This document shows, piece by piece, positions 3,575 through 33,285 of a DNA stretch of 44,432 nt. The DNA is from Ktedonobacteria bacterium (lineage in GTDB: Bacteria > Chloroflexota > Ktedonobacteria > Ktedonobacterales > JACDGC01), in contig DAIDHM010000245.1 of the NCBI GenBank assembly GCA_027459705.1, positions 1 through 44,432 of the forward strand, read 5' to 3'. The position numbers and the translations under genes were made by a program. The notes below the pieces were generated by a model. That model made no database searches. It was not told where the DNA came from and saw nothing but the letters and a program-made list of their open reading frames with translations. Numbering within the stretch: the stretch's first letter is position 1; every line of letters begins with the position of its first letter.

Positions 3575-4624
3575 ATGCGCCGCTCTCAACGTTGGTCCAG
3601 CGCCCTACTCCTGCTCTTCGTCCTGACGACTACCGCCTGCGGGAGCAGTACGAACGCGCTTGATACCAAAACCCATCTCTTATTGATGGTCGGTGGTCTG
3701 AACAAGATCATTTATCTCCCCAATATCCTGACCAAACAGCTCGGATTCTTCGATCAAGAAGGGCTGGATGTCACCTTGATTGACGAGGCGTCCGGCCAGT
3801 CTGCGGAAGATCTGGTGCTCGCCCGCCAGGTCGATGCGGGATCGGGATCGTATAACCATGCCATTGAACTTCAGGCAGCGGGCCACTCCATGGAATGCGT
3901 CGTGCAACTCGATATTGCGCCTGGCGAGGCTGAGATGGTCGCCACGCGCGAAGTCGGGAAAATTCATTCCATGGCCGATCTCGCGGGTAAAAATCTCGGT
4001 GTCACGGAGATTGGCGCGGGAACACAGACGCTGACCGTCGCGCTCTTGCACCGCGCGGGGATCGCGCCTTCACAGGTCCATTTCACCTCCGTCGGTGCTG
4101 ATGACACCTTCATCGCCGCGTTGCAACAGGGACAGATCGATGCTGGAATGACCTCTGAGCCGACCATCTCGCGCGTCATTTCCAGTGGCGCGGGGCAGAT
4201 TCTGGTCGATTTGCGGACTCCGGCGCTCACGCAACAAGCATTGGGTGGCCCATTTCCGTTCATCTGCGTCTTCATGCGCAATGATTATGTTGCCGCTCAC
4301 CAGGCTGTCGTCCGCCAACTCGTCACCGCCTATGTCAAAACACTGCGTTGGATGCAAGCGCACACCGCCGAGCAGATCGCGGAGCACGTCCCTCCCAGTT
4401 ATCTTGCCAATGCGAGTGGTTCTGCTACCGATCGGGCGTTGTACATTACCGCGCTCCGCAACCAGTTCTCGATGTTTAGTCCCGATGGACTGATGCCCGT
4501 TGGGGGTCCCGAATCAGTTCTAGCAATCGAACAGCAAACGGGACAAATATCCCCCAACATTCCCATCAACCTGAGCGCCACGTTCACCAACACGTTCGCG
4601 GCACAAGTCAATGGCGCTCCCTGA
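3575..4624 (+). CDS. ABC-type substrate-binding lipoprotein, NMT1/THI5 (SsuA/TauA)-like, orphan
   Basis: Extracytoplasmic solute-binding protein of 349 residues from the ATG at 3575. The N-terminus MRRSQRWSSALLLLFVL followed by TTTACGSS is a lipoprotein signal with the lipid-bearing cysteine at about residue 24. The mature protein shows NMT1/THI5-family features: YLPNILTKQLGFFDQEGLDVTL, then a first lobe with SAEDLVLARQVDAGSGSY, and GKNLGVTEIGAGTQTLTVALLHRAG. Family members bind nitrate, sulfonates, taurine, thiamine precursors or aromatic acids; the ligand is not readable. No permease or ATPase of this transporter type lies nearby, so it is an orphan. It converges on the response regulator and shares an upstream motif with the sensor kinase, which makes a role in presenting ligand to that kinase plausible. 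Confidence 0.88.
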   Translation: MRRSQRWSSALLLLFVLTTTACGSSTNALDTKTHLLLMVGGLNKIIYLPNILTKQLGFFDQEGLDVTLIDEASGQSAEDLVLARQVDAGSGSYNHAIELQAAGHSMECVVQLDIAPGEAEMVATREVGKIHSMADLAGKNLGVTEIGAGTQTLTVALLHRAGIAPSQVHFTSVGADDTFIAALQQGQIDAGMTSEPTISRVISSGAGQILVDLRTPALTQQALGGPFPFICVFMRNDYVAAHQAVVRQLVTAYVKTLRWMQAHTAEQIAEHVPPSYLANASGSATDRALYITALRNQFSMFSPDGLMPVGGPESVLAIEQQTGQISPNIPINLSATFTNTFAAQVNGAP

Positions 4625-4661
4625 ACTGGCTCGGGGTCGGTAGCCGCGCCGCCAATCCCCC

Positions 4662-5375
4662 TCAGGGGGCTACGAAGCGATACCCAACCCCCGGTTCCGT
4701 GATAAAATAGCGCGGCACCGCGGGGTCGGGCTCCAACTTATGGCGCAGGCGGTTGATATAGACCCGCAGGTATTCCGCTTCGCCGCCATACTCTGGCCCC
4801 CAAACGCTCTTCAGCAGCGCGCTATGGGTCATCACCTTACCGACATTGGAGACCAACTGTTGGAGGAGCGCGAATTCTGTCGGCGAGAGGCGCACTTCTG
4901 CATCGTCGCGCGTGACGACATGTGCCGCGAAGTCAATCTTGATCGCTCCAAAACGTTTGGTGCCGGTCTCCGCCGGGTGGCCCGATGCCGCAGGTGACGC
5001 GTCGGGTTGGGCGCGCCGTAAGACCGCGCGCACCCGTGCCAGGAGTTCCTCCACACCGAATGGCTTCGTGAGATAGTCGTCCGCGCCCAGATCCAGCGCC
5101 GTCACTTTGTCGCTTTCCGCGTCGAGCGCCGTCAACACAATGATCGGCACCGCGGACTGCTCGCGCACCCGGCGACATACCTCCAATCCGTCCATGCGCG
5201 GCATCATGATATCCAGGATCAACAGATGCGGCGTCTCGCGTTCCCAGACGGCCAGTGCTTCCAATCCATTGCTCGCTTCCGCAACCTCGAAACCCCGAGC
5301 GCGAAGATTGCGGCTGATGAAATCCCGCAAGGCCCCCTCGTCGTCCGCGACGAGGATTCGTTTTGGCTGCATCAT
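4662..5375 (-). CDS. OmpR/KdpE-type response regulator
   Basis: DNA-binding output protein of 237 residues for the upstream kinase. Receiver domain (about 5-120): acidic pocket D11-D12, phospho-acceptor D55 in LLILDIMMP, switch K104 in LTKPF. The winged-helix domain (about 142-235) has LSPTEFALLQQLVSNVGKVM, the recognition region YLRVYINRLRHKLEPD and the closing ITEPGVGYRF typical of KdpE relatives. Oddly, the linker segment SPAASGHPAETG at about residues 127-138 is encoded by a copy of the 18-bp GC-rich repeat found in nearby intergenic DNA. The start (ATGATG) follows GAGGG by six bases. A 188-base gap separates it from the kinase, so it may have its own promoter. Confidence 0.93.
   Translation of the reverse strand: MMQPKRILVADDEGALRDFISRNLRARGFEVAEASNGLEALAVWERETPHLLILDIMMPRMDGLEVCRRVREQSAVPIIVLTALDAESDKVTALDLGADDYLTKPFGVEELLARVRAVLRRAQPDASPAASGHPAETGTKRFGAIKIDFAAHVVTRDDAEVRLSPTEFALLQQLVSNVGKVMTHSALLKSVWGPEYGGEAEYLRVYINRLRHKLEPDPAVPRYFITEPGVGYRFVAP
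4973..4990. repeat. 18-bp GC-rich repeat unit inside a coding sequence
   Basis: CCGGGTGGCCCGATGCCG, one mismatch from the family consensus, lying in frame in the response-regulator linker (read on the minus strand as part of AASGHPAE). It is the only single unit and the only one in a gene. Confidence 0.85.
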
Positions 5376-5404
5376 CCTGTTCCCTCTTTCAGTGAAAACG
5401 CTGG

Positions 5405-5458
5405 TGATCCAATGACCAGTGGATCAGGCGATGGAGCGCCGCCTACGAATGCATTCGT
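5405..5458. promoter_or_regulatory. Dyad symmetries between kinase and regulator genes
   Basis: Two inverted repeats lie in the 188-base gap. TGATCCA (5405-5411) and TGGATCA (5420-5426) are separated by eight bases, and ACGAATGCATTCGT (5445-5458) is a perfect 14-base palindrome. They are 30-83 bases upstream of the regulator start and could be operators or an RNA structure between the two genes. Confidence 0.4.
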
Positions 5459-5563
5459 GGGCTCATGACACAAAATCGATGAAAACCGATTGTGGCTCCC
5501 CCTCGCCAGCCAGGCAAGTCCCATCAACCGAGCAATTTCCGTGGTCCGCCTGGATACACGCGA

Positions 5564-8254
5564 TCATGTCTCCTCCACGAAGCGTTCAGCGGCGAGTAAC
5601 GGCAACGTGAAGGACATCGTCGTCCCCTGACTGGCGCTCGTTGCCCAGATGGCGCCACCATGCGCTTCGATGAATGCCTTGCAGATCGACAGCCCCAAAC
5701 CCGTACCACCCGCGTGTTGCAGTCGACCGTGGTGAGTGCGGTAGAAACGCTCGAACACATAGGGTAGCTCCTCTGGCGCGATTCCTGGGCCATCATCGGT
5801 GATGCCGACCACCACTGCGTCCGGTTGCGCCTCCGCGGTGATAACGACAGAACCAGATCCATAGATCAGGGCGTTGCGCATGAGATTCTGCAGGACGATT
5901 TCGATGCGCGGCGCATCCACCTCGACCAGAGGCAGCGCCTCAGCGATCACTACCTGCATGTGCGCGTCGGGCGCGTTAATCCGCGCGATCGATTGCGCGA
6001 TCAACGTCTCCACGCGTGCTGGCGCGCGCTGCAACAGGAGCAACCCTGTTTCTTGGCGTGAAAGATCGAGCAGATTACTGACGATCTGTGCCAGCCGATC
6101 AGCTTCACTGCTGATGGTCTCCAGGAAATGACGCTGATCTGCTGACGACCACGTCACATCGGGCTGGAGCAATGTCGAGGCATGTCCGATGATCGCCGCC
6201 AGCGGCGTGCGCAATTCATGGCCAACGGCCGCCAGCAAGGCTGTCTTAAAGGCGTCCAGTTCGCGTTCGCGCGTCACATCGCGCAGCAACAGGCCCCGGC
6301 CAATCGGCAACCCCGCATCATCCTCCACCGCGAAGATCCGCATATGCAGCGCGCGTCGCTGCATGGTCGTACCAATTTCGACGACAGCCGCGCTGGTTTT
6401 GCCACTTTCTAGCTCATCGATGACCTGGTTTGCGCCCGGGATTGCACGCGCCGCGCGACGGAGCGCCGCATAGAGCACGCTGATCGGTTGTTGTTCCAAC
6501 TCGTGCGTCGCCAACCCGCTCAGGCTGCTTGCGCCGATGTTCGCATATAAGATCATGCCCGCCGGACTGGTCAAGAGCAACCCATCACTCATGCTGCCCA
6601 TGATGGCGGCAAGTTTATGCTTCTCATCCGTCGCTGCCTGGTACAGACGCGAATTTTCCTGCGCCACCTCGCGTAACCGTTCATCGCTGCGTTCATAAAG
6701 AACCGCGTGTTCCCAGGCGAGCGTCGCATAATTAGCGAAGGTCAAGAGCAGATCGATAGCATTGGCATCGAAGCGGCGGGCCTCACTGCGATGGACCGTC
6801 AGCACGACGCTGCCGGCATGCCGACTGATAATCGGAATCGCCAGCACCGAACGGAAGCCCTCCGCATAGGCGAGTGAGGAAGCGGCACTATCAATCAATC
6901 GCTGTACTGGCTGGCGATCGTGGAGCGCCTGGACAGCGGTCGAAGCGAGATTTTCTGGCGAGAGTGAAAGAGCAGAATTAAAGCGCTCCGAGTGGCCATC
7001 GCTCACCAACACGCGTAAGACACCATCCTTATCGGGCACGAGGACCGCGGCGGCCTGCACATCTACCAGGCGTCGCGCCTCGCGGATAATCGTTCCAACC
7101 ACGGCGTAAGGGTCTAATGAACCGACCACCGCATTAGAAGTCTCCAGCAGGGTGCGCAACTCGCTCAATTTGCGCAACCCATCGCGTTCGAGGCGTTCCA
7201 GGGATCGCGAGAGTCCCCCAACTTCGTCGGCACGGTTGCGCAATTGAGTCGTCCGCTGCGAGATAGCCTGTTCTGTGTTCGGCAGTGCCTGATGTTGCGA
7301 GGCAAGCAAATGTAGAGGTTGAATGACACGTAGGACGAGCAATGACCAGAAGAGCAATCCACCGACGGCGAAAAGCAATGCGGTCGTCGAGAGCCAATTA
7401 TCGAAGACCTGCACGACCGCGAGGGCACGGCTGGCCCGTTCCTGCACCACCACTGCCCAGCCAGTTTCGGGCACGGGCACCGCGCTGAAGAGCCAACTTT
7501 GCCCGTCCGTACCCGTTCCAAGAAGCGAGACAATCTGTCCGTGCAGGGCAAGCCCGGCGCCAGGCAATTCGTCCAGCACCGTCTGGAGAAGGCGGGCATG
7601 CTGCGGCGAAGCAATCAACTCGCCTTGATTATCAATGATGCTGATCGACAACGTCCGGCCTTGCTGTGTCTGCGCCTGTACCACTGTGGCCAGCGGTTCA
7701 CTGAGTTCCACCAATGAGAGACTGGCTGCGACGATCCCCACCAGCCGACCCTGTGAATCATGCACCGCGGTCGCCATGATGACGCCCGCGTTGAACGTAC
7801 TCTCCACTGCGATGCCCACGTCGAAGACCGGTCCCGACGCGCTGAGTGCGCGCTGTACCACATCGGGTGGCGAGAATTCATCACCGGCGATGACCTGGCC
7901 GGAATTTGGCCAGACGACGCGCAGTTCGCCGACGGGATCCAGCCAATAGACATAATCGACATCTACACGCGCGGACTGGTAATTCTGGAAGATGCCGAGG
8001 ACATCCGCGGGTGTTGGCGCTGCCGCGACCAATTTACCCAGGTTGACCAGCGAAGTCTCGTCGTCATTGAGTTGCAGACTGGTGTTGAGCGCAATCTCCT
8101 GCGCCAACGCCTGGTCGGAAGTCTGCACATTGGCGCGCAAGCGATGGGCAACCTGGATGCTGAAACCTGCACCCACACCCAGCACGATACCCACAAAGAG
8201 CAGATAGACGCTCAAGAGTTGCAGCAATAATGAGCTACGGACCATCGCGCGCAT
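5564..8254 (-). CDS. Membrane sensor histidine kinase (dCache-HAMP-GAF-PAS-HisKA-HATPase)
   Basis: Large hybrid-input kinase of 896 residues. A first membrane helix at about 7-30 and a second at about 290-312 enclose an extracytoplasmic domain of some 255 residues with dCache style (VDYVYWLDPVGELRVVWPN, then SLSISIIDNQGELIAS-like second lobe). Next come a HAMP-like segment, a GAF domain (about 365-530), a coiled linker, a PAS domain (about 565-675, MGSMSDGLLLTSPAGMILYA), HisKA with phospho-acceptor H679 in AVGHELRTPLAAIIGH, and HATPase with N-box NLMRNALIYG, G1 DDGPGIAPEE and G2 GTGLGLSICK. dCache domains usually bind small ligands such as organic or amino acids directly or through a binding protein. 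The start follows AGGGGG by eight bases. It is upstream of its partner regulator and divergent from the CoA-transferase operon. Confidence 0.93.
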   Translation of the reverse strand: MRAMVRSSLLLQLLSVYLLFVGIVLGVGAGFSIQVAHRLRANVQTSDQALAQEIALNTSLQLNDDETSLVNLGKLVAAAPTPADVLGIFQNYQSARVDVDYVYWLDPVGELRVVWPNSGQVIAGDEFSPPDVVQRALSASGPVFDVGIAVESTFNAGVIMATAVHDSQGRLVGIVAASLSLVELSEPLATVVQAQTQQGRTLSISIIDNQGELIASPQHARLLQTVLDELPGAGLALHGQIVSLLGTGTDGQSWLFSAVPVPETGWAVVVQERASRALAVVQVFDNWLSTTALLFAVGGLLFWSLLVLRVIQPLHLLASQHQALPNTEQAISQRTTQLRNRADEVGGLSRSLERLERDGLRKLSELRTLLETSNAVVGSLDPYAVVGTIIREARRLVDVQAAAVLVPDKDGVLRVLVSDGHSERFNSALSLSPENLASTAVQALHDRQPVQRLIDSAASSLAYAEGFRSVLAIPIISRHAGSVVLTVHRSEARRFDANAIDLLLTFANYATLAWEHAVLYERSDERLREVAQENSRLYQAATDEKHKLAAIMGSMSDGLLLTSPAGMILYANIGASSLSGLATHELEQQPISVLYAALRRAARAIPGANQVIDELESGKTSAAVVEIGTTMQRRALHMRIFAVEDDAGLPIGRGLLLRDVTRERELDAFKTALLAAVGHELRTPLAAIIGHASTLLQPDVTWSSADQRHFLETISSEADRLAQIVSNLLDLSRQETGLLLLQRAPARVETLIAQSIARINAPDAHMQVVIAEALPLVEVDAPRIEIVLQNLMRNALIYGSGSVVITAEAQPDAVVVGITDDGPGIAPEELPYVFERFYRTHHGRLQHAGGTGLGLSICKAFIEAHGGAIWATSASQGTTMSFTLPLLAAERFVEET

Positions 8255-21334: not shown

Positions 21335-23173
21335 TCACGAGAGCGGACCCGTACCATTGCTAGGAGACGGAAGGTCGGCGAGTTGGCCATCGATCAGCTT
21401 TTCGTGCTTATGCCCGTTGGTGGGTGGGGGAGGCGATGCATCGACCTGCGCCAGCGCGGACATCGCAATCTCGGCCAACGCGCTCGGCGGGAGCGGTGGC
21501 ACATCGGCGCGGGCGATCAAATCCAGCACCTCCTCGCCCTCCAGATCTTCGCGGAGGATCAGCGCTTCGGCTACCGAGACCACCGCCGCGCGATGGTGCT
21601 CGAGCAGGGCACGAACGCTGGTATAAGCGCGTCGCAGGACGGCCTCTGCCTCGCGACGGATCTCTGGATCAACGAAGAGGCGGTCATGGTCATTCATAGC
21701 GAGCACCGAGAAGAATGAGTCACCCATGCCGCAGACCGTCACATACTGCAGCGCTAACTGCGTTGCGCGCTGCAAATCGCCCGCGACGCCGTTCAGGCGC
21801 GTCTGCAGGAAGAGTTCTTCGGCGGCGCGGCTGGCGAGCAGCACCTGGATCTCGGCGAAGATCTCTTCGGCGGAATTCGTCACGATCTCTTCCATCTCGC
21901 GGTACGAGACATAGGCTTCAGCGCCACCCGCTCCCAGGCGCTTCGAAATGGTGGCATGGGTGACCCGATGCCGGGCCAGCAGTTTTGCCTGGGCGACGGC
22001 ATGCCCCGCCTCGTGATACGCCAGGCGGCGCTTTTCCAGCGGGGAGAGTTGGCGCGGCATACGCAGGCCATGCTCATGCGTTTCGCGCGCCTCGCAGATA
22101 TCCTGATATTGCATCGAGGTGCGTCCGGCGAAGTGCGCGATGACCACCGCTTCATTGATAACATATTTGATGGCGACGGGGGTATAACCCCGGAAGTCGC
22201 CTACAAGCTTAGACATCTCGATATGATCGTGCTTGACCTTGCTCAAATAATAGTCAATGACTTCAGCGCGGTGCGCGTCGGAAGGCGGCGCAACGACAAT
22301 TCGACGATCGAAGCGGCCGGGACGCAGTAGCGCGGCGTCCAGAGATTCGGGGATATTAGTAGCGCCAATCGTCAAGACTGGCTCGCGGATCGCTTTCCCA
22401 TGATAAAGACCGAGCATGCGCAGGAAGCGACGGACAAAGCTATTGTCGCTGGGTGGTGGATCCATCTGCATGAGCAACTCATTCAAACCGCCTGTCCCGC
22501 CACCAAACATGCCGAACCCGCCGCCCATGCCCATCTGATTGGACCCACCGCTACCACGCGAGAGGCCAATGGCATCAAACTCATCCATGAAGATGATGCA
22601 ACCACCATACTCGCGGGCCAATCGCCGGGCTTTGCGGTAGAGATTCTTGATCATCAGCACGTCCATGCCAATGAACATCGCGCGGAAACTGGCGGCACTG
22701 GCATAGGCAAATGGTACGCCGGCTTCCGTACTGATGCACTGCGCCAGATAGCTCTTCCCAGTACCGGGCGGCCCGACGAGTAAGACCCCGCGGCTCACCT
22801 CGCCGCCCATCTCCTTGAAGGTCTTGACACCGCGGAGCAATGTGACGATGCGTCGCGCGGCTTCCAGCACTTCGGGATTGCCCTTATAATCCGCAAAGCC
22901 GATTCCCGTCTCACCCGGCATCACCCAGTAAAGTCGGGGACGGCCAAGGAACCAGAAGATGGCGACGAACTGCAGAATGCCAAACATCACCGCGACGCCG
23001 AGTTGCAGGATAATACCAAGTCCGCTCACCTGGGTCTGTGTGGTCGTGTGGCTGAAGATGAACCAGATCACCAGCGCTACGACTACAATCCCCATACCCC
23101 AGCGGCGGAAGAATCGTCCAATATTGTCGAGCGACCGATCGATCGATCGGTCCAGTTCCGCATCATTGATCAT
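21335..23173 (-). CDS. FtsH-like AAA+ metalloprotease without periplasmic domain
   Basis: Membrane-bound ATP-dependent protease of 612 residues. Two helices (about 28-42 and 52-76) are joined by only about ten residues, so the roughly 80-residue periplasmic domain of canonical FtsH is missing. AAA module: Walker A GPPGTGKS (134-141), pore loop MFIGMD with F167-I-G, Walker B IIFMDEFD (193-200), arginine fingers in LLRPGRFDR (282-290). Between Walker B and sensor 1 there is an extra glycine/methionine-rich segment (SNQMGMGGGFGMFGGGTGG) and a further insert PPPSDNSFVRRFLRMLGLYHG. The protease has HEAGH (387-391) and third zinc ligand D466 in GVAGDLQRAT. The C-terminal tail is proline-rich. It is co-transcribed with the single-pass protein upstream (15-base gap), which could supply the missing external domain. 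Confidence 0.9.
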   Translation of the reverse strand: MINDAELDRSIDRSLDNIGRFFRRWGMGIVVVALVIWFIFSHTTTQTQVSGLGIILQLGVAVMFGILQFVAIFWFLGRPRLYWVMPGETGIGFADYKGNPEVLEAARRIVTLLRGVKTFKEMGGEVSRGVLLVGPPGTGKSYLAQCISTEAGVPFAYASAASFRAMFIGMDVLMIKNLYRKARRLAREYGGCIIFMDEFDAIGLSRGSGGSNQMGMGGGFGMFGGGTGGLNELLMQMDPPPSDNSFVRRFLRMLGLYHGKAIREPVLTIGATNIPESLDAALLRPGRFDRRIVVAPPSDAHRAEVIDYYLSKVKHDHIEMSKLVGDFRGYTPVAIKYVINEAVVIAHFAGRTSMQYQDICEARETHEHGLRMPRQLSPLEKRRLAYHEAGHAVAQAKLLARHRVTHATISKRLGAGGAEAYVSYREMEEIVTNSAEEIFAEIQVLLASRAAEELFLQTRLNGVAGDLQRATQLALQYVTVCGMGDSFFSVLAMNDHDRLFVDPEIRREAEAVLRRAYTSVRALLEHHRAAVVSVAEALILREDLEGEEVLDLIARADVPPLPPSALAEIAMSALAQVDASPPPPTNGHKHEKLIDGQLADLPSPSNGTGPLS

Positions 23174-23188
23174 GTGTTCTGCCTCCGC

Positions 23189-24052
23189 CTACTGGCCATT
23201 GAGATTGGAGGCCTGGATAACCTGACCCTGGCCATCGACTTCGAAGTAGAACGTCTCTGCCACATTGTTTCCGGCGCTGTCGGACTTGATGACCTCGACC
23301 GTGTACTTGGAGACACCCGTTCCGGGCACGATGAAGTATCCCGTGTAGATGAACTGCTGGTAGGCGATACCTGCGGTCTTCTCTTGCACGAAGTACGAAG
23401 CATAGGCCGACTGGGTGATATTGTTCTGCGTGAAGGTTTGTTGGAGGGTTGGACTGAGGGCTGACCAAAGCTCCTGAGCATTGTACGTTTTGAGGCCATG
23501 CAAGTAGTGCAACACATTGGTCGGCAAAGGCGCCAGGCCCTGGGTATAATCGGTGATGGTAAAAGGCGCATTGATATCCGGGTTGGGGGATGCCGTCGCG
23601 ATGGGCACGGAGCCCAGCGCGCGCGCCGGGCGCGCTGTGGGTGTGACCATGTTCACGATGACCCAGAGCGCCAGAACTAATACGGCCAGAACCGCCGCGA
23701 CGCCCAACGAACGGCGCGGATGCTGGCTGACACCGTTACCGGCATAATAGATGCCTTTGAGCAGTGTCTTGAAGGGCCAACGGACGATGCGCCAAAAAAG
23801 TGGTCGCTCTGTGCGCGGCAACGGTGGCAATGCTGGTGCGCGTGGAGTTGACATGAATGGCGAGAGCGCGGCAGGCGCTACCGCAAGCGCAGGAGGTGGA
23901 GGTGGCGCGCCAATCGATTGCGGGCCATAGGGCGGTTTTGCTGGTGGGAGGTCCGCTGCCGACGAACGATCCACTATCGGCGGCAACACAACCTGCGGCC
24001 CTCCATAAATTGGTTCGGCGTCCTGCGCCGGCGGCAATGGTGGTTGGCTCAT
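23189..24052 (-). CDS. Single-pass membrane protein with proline-rich cytoplasmic part
   Basis: Protein of 287 residues of no family I recognise. The first 85 residues are proline/alanine-rich (for example IGAPPPPPALAVAP); a basic amphipathic segment (LFWRIVRWPFKTLLKGIYYAG) precedes one membrane helix at about 118-136. The external C-terminal domain of about 150 residues (TITDYTQGLAPLPTNVLHYL to FEVDGQGQVIQASNL) alternates helix and strands and resembles NTF2/DUF4878-like accessory domains in outline. The start follows GGAGAAGG by ten bases. It lies 15 bases upstream of the FtsH-like protease on the same strand, so an adaptor, regulator or substrate-recruiting partner is the natural inference. 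Confidence 0.75.
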   Translation of the reverse strand: MSQPPLPPAQDAEPIYGGPQVVLPPIVDRSSAADLPPAKPPYGPQSIGAPPPPPALAVAPAALSPFMSTPRAPALPPLPRTERPLFWRIVRWPFKTLLKGIYYAGNGVSQHPRRSLGVAAVLAVLVLALWVIVNMVTPTARPARALGSVPIATASPNPDINAPFTITDYTQGLAPLPTNVLHYLHGLKTYNAQELWSALSPTLQQTFTQNNITQSAYASYFVQEKTAGIAYQQFIYTGYFIVPGTGVSKYTVEVIKSDSAGNNVAETFYFEVDGQGQVIQASNLNGQ

Positions 24053-24363
24053 CGAGCACCATCCTTCTCCAGCTGAATTTGTGCGGCAACGCAGAAGGAC
24101 CGCGACGTTGCGGCATCAGACTCGTTCACACAAGGGGAGACCTGTGTCGCCGTTGCTCTGGCGACCTTCCTGGGTGTGGATTGCCACACAATCGTCCAGG
24201 TAACCATCCAGTCATGATAGATTATGCATCATTGTAGATGTCTGAACAATTTCCGTCAAGCAATAGGAAACGCGCCTCTTTGTGTACGAAGCGGGTTCTC
24301 AGATTGTTCATAGATTGCCAACTCGCGGTCAGTTGCAAATCTCTGCAACATCCCCAATACGAT
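24053..24363. other. Intergenic region between FtsH-partner gene and carboxypeptidase
   Basis: About 310 bases holding the upstream region of the single-pass/FtsH operon and the downstream region of the carboxypeptidase gene. I see no gene, strong hairpin or consensus promoter. Confidence 0.4.
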
Positions 24364-33068: not shown

Positions 33069-33155
33069 GGAGAGATGTCCGAGCGGTTTAAGGAGCTGCC
33101 CTCGAAATGCAGTGTACCTGAAAGGGTACCGTGGGTTCGAATCCCACTCTCTCCG
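33069..33155 (+). tRNA. tRNA-Ser (anticodon CGA)
   Basis: Type II tRNA of 87 bases. Acceptor GGAGAGA pairs with TCTCTCC, three-base D stem TCC/GGA, anticodon loop CTCGAAA giving CGA (reads UCG), long variable arm GTACC/GGTAC and T arm GTGGG-TTCGAAT-CCCAC. The discriminator is G and CCA is not encoded. The last pair of the anticodon stem (31-39) is C-T, a mismatch. Confidence 0.93.
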
Positions 33156-33163
33156 CCCGGAAA

Positions 33164-33191
33164 ACGGGGCGAGGCCGAGGTCTCGCCCCGT
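33164..33191 (+). terminator. Hairpin between the two serine tRNAs
   Basis: ACGGGGCGAG (33164-33173) pairs perfectly with CTCGCCCCGT (33182-33191) over ten bases. It may be a processing or partial termination signal between the genes; no U tract follows. Confidence 0.55.
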
Positions 33192-33201
33192 ATACGATCC
33201 C

Positions 33202-33285
33202 GGAGGAGTCCCATAGCGGCCTAGTGGGCACGACTGGAAATCGTGTGTGTGATGAGCACCGTGGGTTCGAATCCCACCTCCTCCG
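33202..33285 (+). tRNA. tRNA-Ser (anticodon GGA)
   Basis: Type II tRNA of 84 bases. Acceptor GGAGGAG/CTCCTCC, D stem CCA/TGG, anticodon stem CACGA/TCGTG with loop CTGGAAA giving GGA (reads UCC and UCU), long variable arm around GTG...CAC, and a T arm identical to that of the CGA tRNA. CCA is not encoded. It has no clear promoter of its own and is probably co-transcribed. Confidence 0.94.

Follow-up and report, generated by a model that had tools for sequence, protein, structure and literature searches.

A membrane protease of the FtsH family without an outer domain and its single-pass neighbour suggest a two-part protease in Chloroflexota

Introduction

FtsH is regarded as a nearly universal protease whose layout does not vary. 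The locus described here raises the question of what an FtsH-like protease does without an extracytoplasmic domain when the gene next to it encodes a single-pass membrane protein that has one. The initial annotation of the 44,432-nucleotide stretch of Ktedonobacteria DNA analysed here (the window) had proposed either a split version of FtsH or a protease with a dedicated adaptor. No description of the pair was found in the literature searched, where most subscription papers fall outside coverage. Our analysis suggests that the domainless protease and its small one-helix membrane partner are an undescribed two-part protease. If true, this would show how substrate selection at the membrane can be uncoupled from the protease itself, and it would offer a natural test of the purpose of the FtsH outer domain. 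The pair occurs in cultured and sequenced bacteria (e.g., Ktedonobacter, Thermogemmatispora and Thermomicrobium) and can therefore be tested.

Results

Organization of the gene pair

Both genes lie on the minus strand. The protease ORF (positions 21335-23173, 612 aa) encodes an FtsH-family AAA+/M41 membrane protease without an extracytoplasmic domain, and the partner ORF (23189-24052, 287 aa) encodes a putative N-in/C-out single-pass membrane protein. The spacing of 15 bases given in the initial annotation is exact: the intergenic gap (23174..23188, minus strand) carries a Shine-Dalgarno-like GGCGGAGG ahead of the protease ATG. A single, weak promoter-like site (TTGACG-N17-TACAAT; 24231..24259, minus strand) was located upstream of the pair, in a region where three such sites were found and 1.6 were expected. 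Elsewhere in the window, two tandem tRNA genes occupy positions 33069-33285 of the plus strand.

The protease keeps the catalytic core and lacks the outer domain

In the Pfam scan, the window protease matched AAA (5.8e-26) and Peptidase_M41 (2.7e-24). We read Walker A as GPPGTGKS, Walker B as IIFMDE, the pore loop as FIG, and the arginine fingers in RPGRFDRR. The zinc-binding motif HEAGH occupies residues 387-391 (22001..22015, minus strand), and the sequence and the clade alignment place the third zinc ligand, a distal Asp, at D466. The catalytic residues are thus all intact, as had been annotated, and across the clade alignment HEXXH and the third ligand show little or no variation. Judging by its residues, the protein should work as an FtsH-type protease. 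Its closest solved relatives are FtsHs (~27-28% identity), and its structural matches include solved FtsH, YME1/AFG3L2 and the Ycf2-FtsHi motor. As a membrane-anchored AAA+ module fused to M41, it belongs to the FtsH/M41 superfamily in the wide sense. However, it fails several defining features of canonical FtsH, and its score against the FtsH equivalog TIGR01241 was 263.7 bits, far below the curated cut-off of 600.

FtsH_ext was not detected in the window protease by the Pfam scan, which did find it in the positive controls, one canonical FtsH of the same genome and E. coli FtsH. It was also absent among the 25 families listed for 32 clade members. A two-helix membrane hairpin (residues 4-76; 22946..23164, minus strand) replaces the TM1-FtsH_ext-TM2 segment. 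In the AlphaFold2 model of the protease (mean pLDDT 82), helices 4-42 and 45-76 form this hairpin. The hydropathy cores of the two helices are 18 residues apart, compared with 95-98 in the two canonical FtsHs that this genome also encodes and 80 in E. coli FtsH; in more than 100 domainless relatives the spacing was 5-32 residues, whereas in the canonical FtsHs of Chloroflexota it was 79-112. The missing external domain and the short link between the helices were thereby borne out. The initial annotation had named orthologues with a normal periplasmic domain as evidence against its proposal, and every orthologue checked was domainless. The clade has either lost the outer domain or never had it. 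We also checked whether a canonical ftsH exists elsewhere in the genome and found two copies, indicating that the domainless protease is an additional FtsH-type protein and not the only FtsH of the cell.

The domainless proteases form a deep clade

The domainless clade was present in about one third of the sampled Chloroflexota and in a few Bacillota. In a first tree, built by a quick method, 71 domainless rows clustered with an SH-aLRT of 98. This tree scored L099 as partner-bearing, although the downstream protein of L099 resembles the partner chiefly in its TM region and has a different outer part; it also took L182 as a canonical FtsH, which proved to be a divergent four-helix outlier. A second tree by a quick method (50 rows, deep members added and L182 left out) placed 30 domainless rows and 20 canonical FtsHs on the two sides of one long branch with an SH-aLRT of 100, the canonical rows of both trees coming from Chloroflexota and E. 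coli. The domainless proteases are a deep clade apart from canonical FtsH.

The FtsH-like outlier L182 (G071:C35) has diverged strongly; four membrane helices are predicted for it, and after Walker B it carries a Gly/Met-rich loop of its own. The nearest relative of the window, L090 (JAJPKG010000429.1), is labelled Proteobacteria; its protease groups with Ktedonobacterales, and the genome is probably a mislabelled MAG.

A Gly/Met-rich loop and an altered intersubunit-signalling site

The Gly/Met-rich insert after Walker B was confirmed and turned out to be a conserved feature of the clade. In the window protease it is a loop of 26 residues at the pore-loop-2 position (residues 204-229, LSRGSGGSNQMGMGGGFGMFGGGTGG; 22487..22564, minus strand) with 62% G+M, and the AlphaFold2 pLDDT is low at residues 210-222 within it. 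Across the clade the loop is 20-40 residues long (median ~25) with a median G+M of ~0.54, zero values in this survey being pattern misses of the script; canonical FtsH has ~17 residues at the same place after Walker B (RQRGAGLGGGHDEREQT).

The second alteration lies at residues 238-265 (22379..22462, minus strand), where the intersubunit-signalling DGF of canonical FtsH, located behind the helix next after Walker B, is replaced by DPP and an insert of ~20 residues. DGF has been named as the intersubunit-signalling motif for YME1L (PMC12994072). In the core clade, the D and the first P of DPP are near-invariant and the second P is invariant; deep members differ at this site (e.g., MDSLG and MDGI). 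Given the Gly/Met loop and the replacement of DGF by DPP and an insert, communication around the ring and handling at the pore are probably altered in the clade.

In one clade member, L066 (G016:C505; protease ORF 4206-6260, minus strand), the Walker A (GPSGVGK), Walker B (VIYVDDLNALG) and zinc-binding (HAAGR) motifs have all degenerated. Its reading frame is open and its partner is retained, and it is a candidate bacterial pseudoprotease comparable to plant FtsHi.

The partner is a fast-diverging protein with a predicted NTF2-like domain

The partner comprises a proline-rich N-terminal tail, a basic juxtamembrane helix (residues 85-108), a transmembrane helix (residues 112-136 in the predicted structure; 23645..23719, minus strand) and a folded extracytoplasmic domain (~residues 165-285; 23198..23560, minus strand). 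The anatomy first described for it stood with respect to the single helix and the outer domain. The proline-rich tail is present here but is not conserved in the partner family: Ktedonobacteria have a long one, and other lineages have almost none (e.g., L055 and L063). In the window lineage this cytoplasmic tail is disordered (pLDDT ~50-60). Since positive charges precede the TM helix, we infer an N-in/C-out orientation.

The outer domain was modelled with a pLDDT of ~95. With this predicted model as the query, the best PDB matches in Foldseek were DUF3887, the OCP C-terminal domain and ketosteroid-isomerase-like proteins, at an E-value of 1.5e-4 at best and TM-scores by target length of ~0.5-0.58. 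These matches point to a predicted NTF2-like alpha+beta fold. The Pfam scan gave no family assignment for the partner, with weak single-member matches to DUF3887/MecA_N (E ~0.1). Band_7 was not matched either, and an SPFH/HflK/C protein was rejected on this ground; Band_7 proteins are encoded elsewhere in this genome, unlinked to the pair.

The partner diverges fast, and its alignment contained no invariant residue, which speaks for a binding role rather than an enzyme. An enzymatic partner was rejected for this reason. We compared conservation along the protein in three groups. The juxtamembrane segment was the most conserved in two of them and the outer domain in the third; the TM helix, a possible mark of an interface, was the most conserved in none.

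The pair is conserved across Chloroflexota

A single-pass protein of the partner family was encoded directly upstream in 33 of 41 orthologue loci. Among 101 relatives, the core protease was present in 49, the partner in 44 and both in 42. When 301 genomes across the phylum were surveyed, 103 had the core protease; the partner was found in 59 of these versus 5 of the 198 without the protease (Fisher p ~3e-28, not corrected for phylogeny). By coordinates, 56 of the 64 genomes with a partner have its gene immediately upstream of the protease gene and on the same strand. In the other eight, the partner gene adjoined a protease fragment at a contig end or a protease with a broken reading frame (G032, G238, G147 and G252), occurred as tandem copies (G299), or was unlinked (G154, G047 and G196). 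The outer neighbours vary between lineages while the pair stays. In most lineages the partner adjoins the protease, so the loss of adjacency that the initial annotation had named as counterevidence was not observed, and conservation in many genera excludes a chance neighbour.

The arrangement extends to deep branches (f22, f33 and f45), whose proteases are 40-46% identical. Here, ~140-residue one-TM proteins, often two in tandem, are encoded directly upstream of the protease ORF or overlapping it. Profile comparison by hhalign identifies the first type as a homologue of the partner (95.8%, 8e-9), and the second is a weak match (26-50%). At L213-L215 and L235-L238, the deep-branch protease ORF is immediately preceded or overlapped by genes for single-pass NTF2-like proteins, either one or two in tandem, and tandem partner copies lie beside the protease in L143 and L220.

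No partner was detected in 44 of the 103 genomes with the core protease, a count that is an upper bound because few candidates per genome were scored. Beside the domainless protease, the partner went undetected in f13, f23, f26, part of f15/Roseiflexaceae and the Bacillota members. The existence of partnerless lineages excludes a strictly obligatory partner, and unlinked paralogues exclude a partner exclusive to the protease.

Discussion

By analogy with LapB and HflK/C, the most likely role of the partner is that of a dedicated single-pass membrane adaptor or regulatory subunit that works with the domainless protease in most lineages, to which we assign a probability of about one half. LapB of E. 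coli uses its TM helix to bind FtsH, and it recruits LpxC (PMC9356133). Both LapB and the partner are single-pass membrane proteins, and TM-mediated binding, known for LapB, is here a supposition. However, the working domain of LapB is cytoplasmic, whereas the folded domain of the partner lies outside, its gene is linked to that of the protease, and this protease lacks an outer domain. FtsH is also controlled by HflK/C (SPFH), which are partner proteins in the membrane (PMC9020784). They would resemble the partner in this role and differ from it in fold and gene family.

Physical contact between the protease and the partner is something that we infer only. In the adaptor reading, six protease subunits would assemble into the usual AAA+/M41 ring, topped by a bundle of their twelve membrane helices with short connecting loops. 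Through its TM helix and the basic helix beside it, the partner would enter this bundle, and on the outer side its NTF2-like domain would capture or sense substrates or a signal. Such capture or sensing could then direct or gate degradation on the cytoplasmic side. A more specific and clearly more tentative form of this proposal is a two-part protease that leaves recognition outside the membrane to a single-pass subunit, which is separate and exchangeable. This subunit would in most cases be NTF2-like, present twice in some lineages, and replaced in others by a non-homologous single-pass protein, as in f52 and, with a downstream gene, in L099 and L224.

We considered whether the protease instead degrades or regulates the partner: the partner would then be a sensor or anchor acting outside the membrane, and the protease transcribed with it would set its level. 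The operon-like layout and the co-occurrence would look identical, the disordered cytoplasmic tail in the window lineage could be a degron, and the unlinked paralogues indicate that the partner family has uses without the protease. However, several lineages (e.g., L055 and L063) have kept the pair with hardly any tail, and the partner persists beside the L066 protease, which is without catalytic motifs. This relationship is unlikely. Quite unlikely, too, is that the two proteins are conserved neighbours in one process without contact, such as products of an envelope-stress operon. Adjacency and co-inheritance are no proof of contact, and separate losses and unlinked copies do occur; yet the pair is kept despite changing outer neighbours, the upstream slot is deeply conserved, and other single-pass membrane proteins occupy or lie near the slot in some partnerless lineages.

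The plant FtsHi subunits act mainly as an unfoldase or motor. A similar function for the domainless protease, with proteolysis secondary, would fit DPP and the insert at the signalling motif, the long Gly/Met loop at pore loop 2, the degenerate Walker A, Walker B and HEXXH of L066, and the structural match to the Ycf2-FtsHi motor. The near-invariance of HEXXH and the third ligand in the clade alignment makes it improbable. The split FtsH of the initial annotation, taken literally, was not supported by the analysis. The topologies are complementary, as expected if an ancestral periplasmic domain had become detached and were now the outer domain of the partner. However, hhalign gave a probability of 0.3-0.4% between the partner and the FtsH periplasmic domain (FtsH_ext), while deep partner homologues were recognised at 95.8%; the predicted fold of the partner is NTF2-like, and domainless proteases without a partner exist. 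We therefore regard descent by splitting as very improbable.

The adaptor reading concerns a protease that shares with canonical FtsH (TIGR01241; PF06480+PF00004+PF01434) the AAA and M41 domains, the catalytic residues, two N-terminal helices and the structural match. It differs in having no FtsH_ext, in its separate deep clade, in the Gly/Met loop and in DPP plus an insert for DGF, and it occurs alongside canonical FtsH in the genome. For mitochondrial YME1/AFG3L2, we know of no NTF2-like partner. YME1 (i-AAA) and AFG3L2 (m-AAA) share with the protease the AAA+M41 core, at ~27-29% identity in structural alignment. YME1L has DGF at the intersubunit-signalling site (PMC12994072), whereas the protease has DPP, and their membrane parts differ. 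The NTF2-like extracytoplasmic domains of DUF3887 and MecA_N share the predicted fold of the partner's outer domain; unlike them, the partner lies outside any Pfam family, has no recognisable active site and is linked to a protease.

Several loci with other arrangements were noted. Unlinked partner homologues lie next to DNA ligase and uppS genes in L191 (G047:C24) and L192 (G069:C470), and further ones were found at L223, L225 and L227-L229. In f52 (L202, L203, L204 and L231), a different single-pass protein is encoded directly upstream of the domainless protease, with the conserved outer motif GVtYDanGVAVMGIDADPxGVYNVPxGRQxRIGG. L099 and L224 encode a single-pass protein downstream of the protease (L224:5378-5984); its TM region resembles that of the partner, and its outer part looks, by eye, DUF151/bifunctional-nuclease-like. 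At L146-L151 and L053, partnerless proteases are accompanied by a conserved polytopic protein of ~970 residues encoded downstream.
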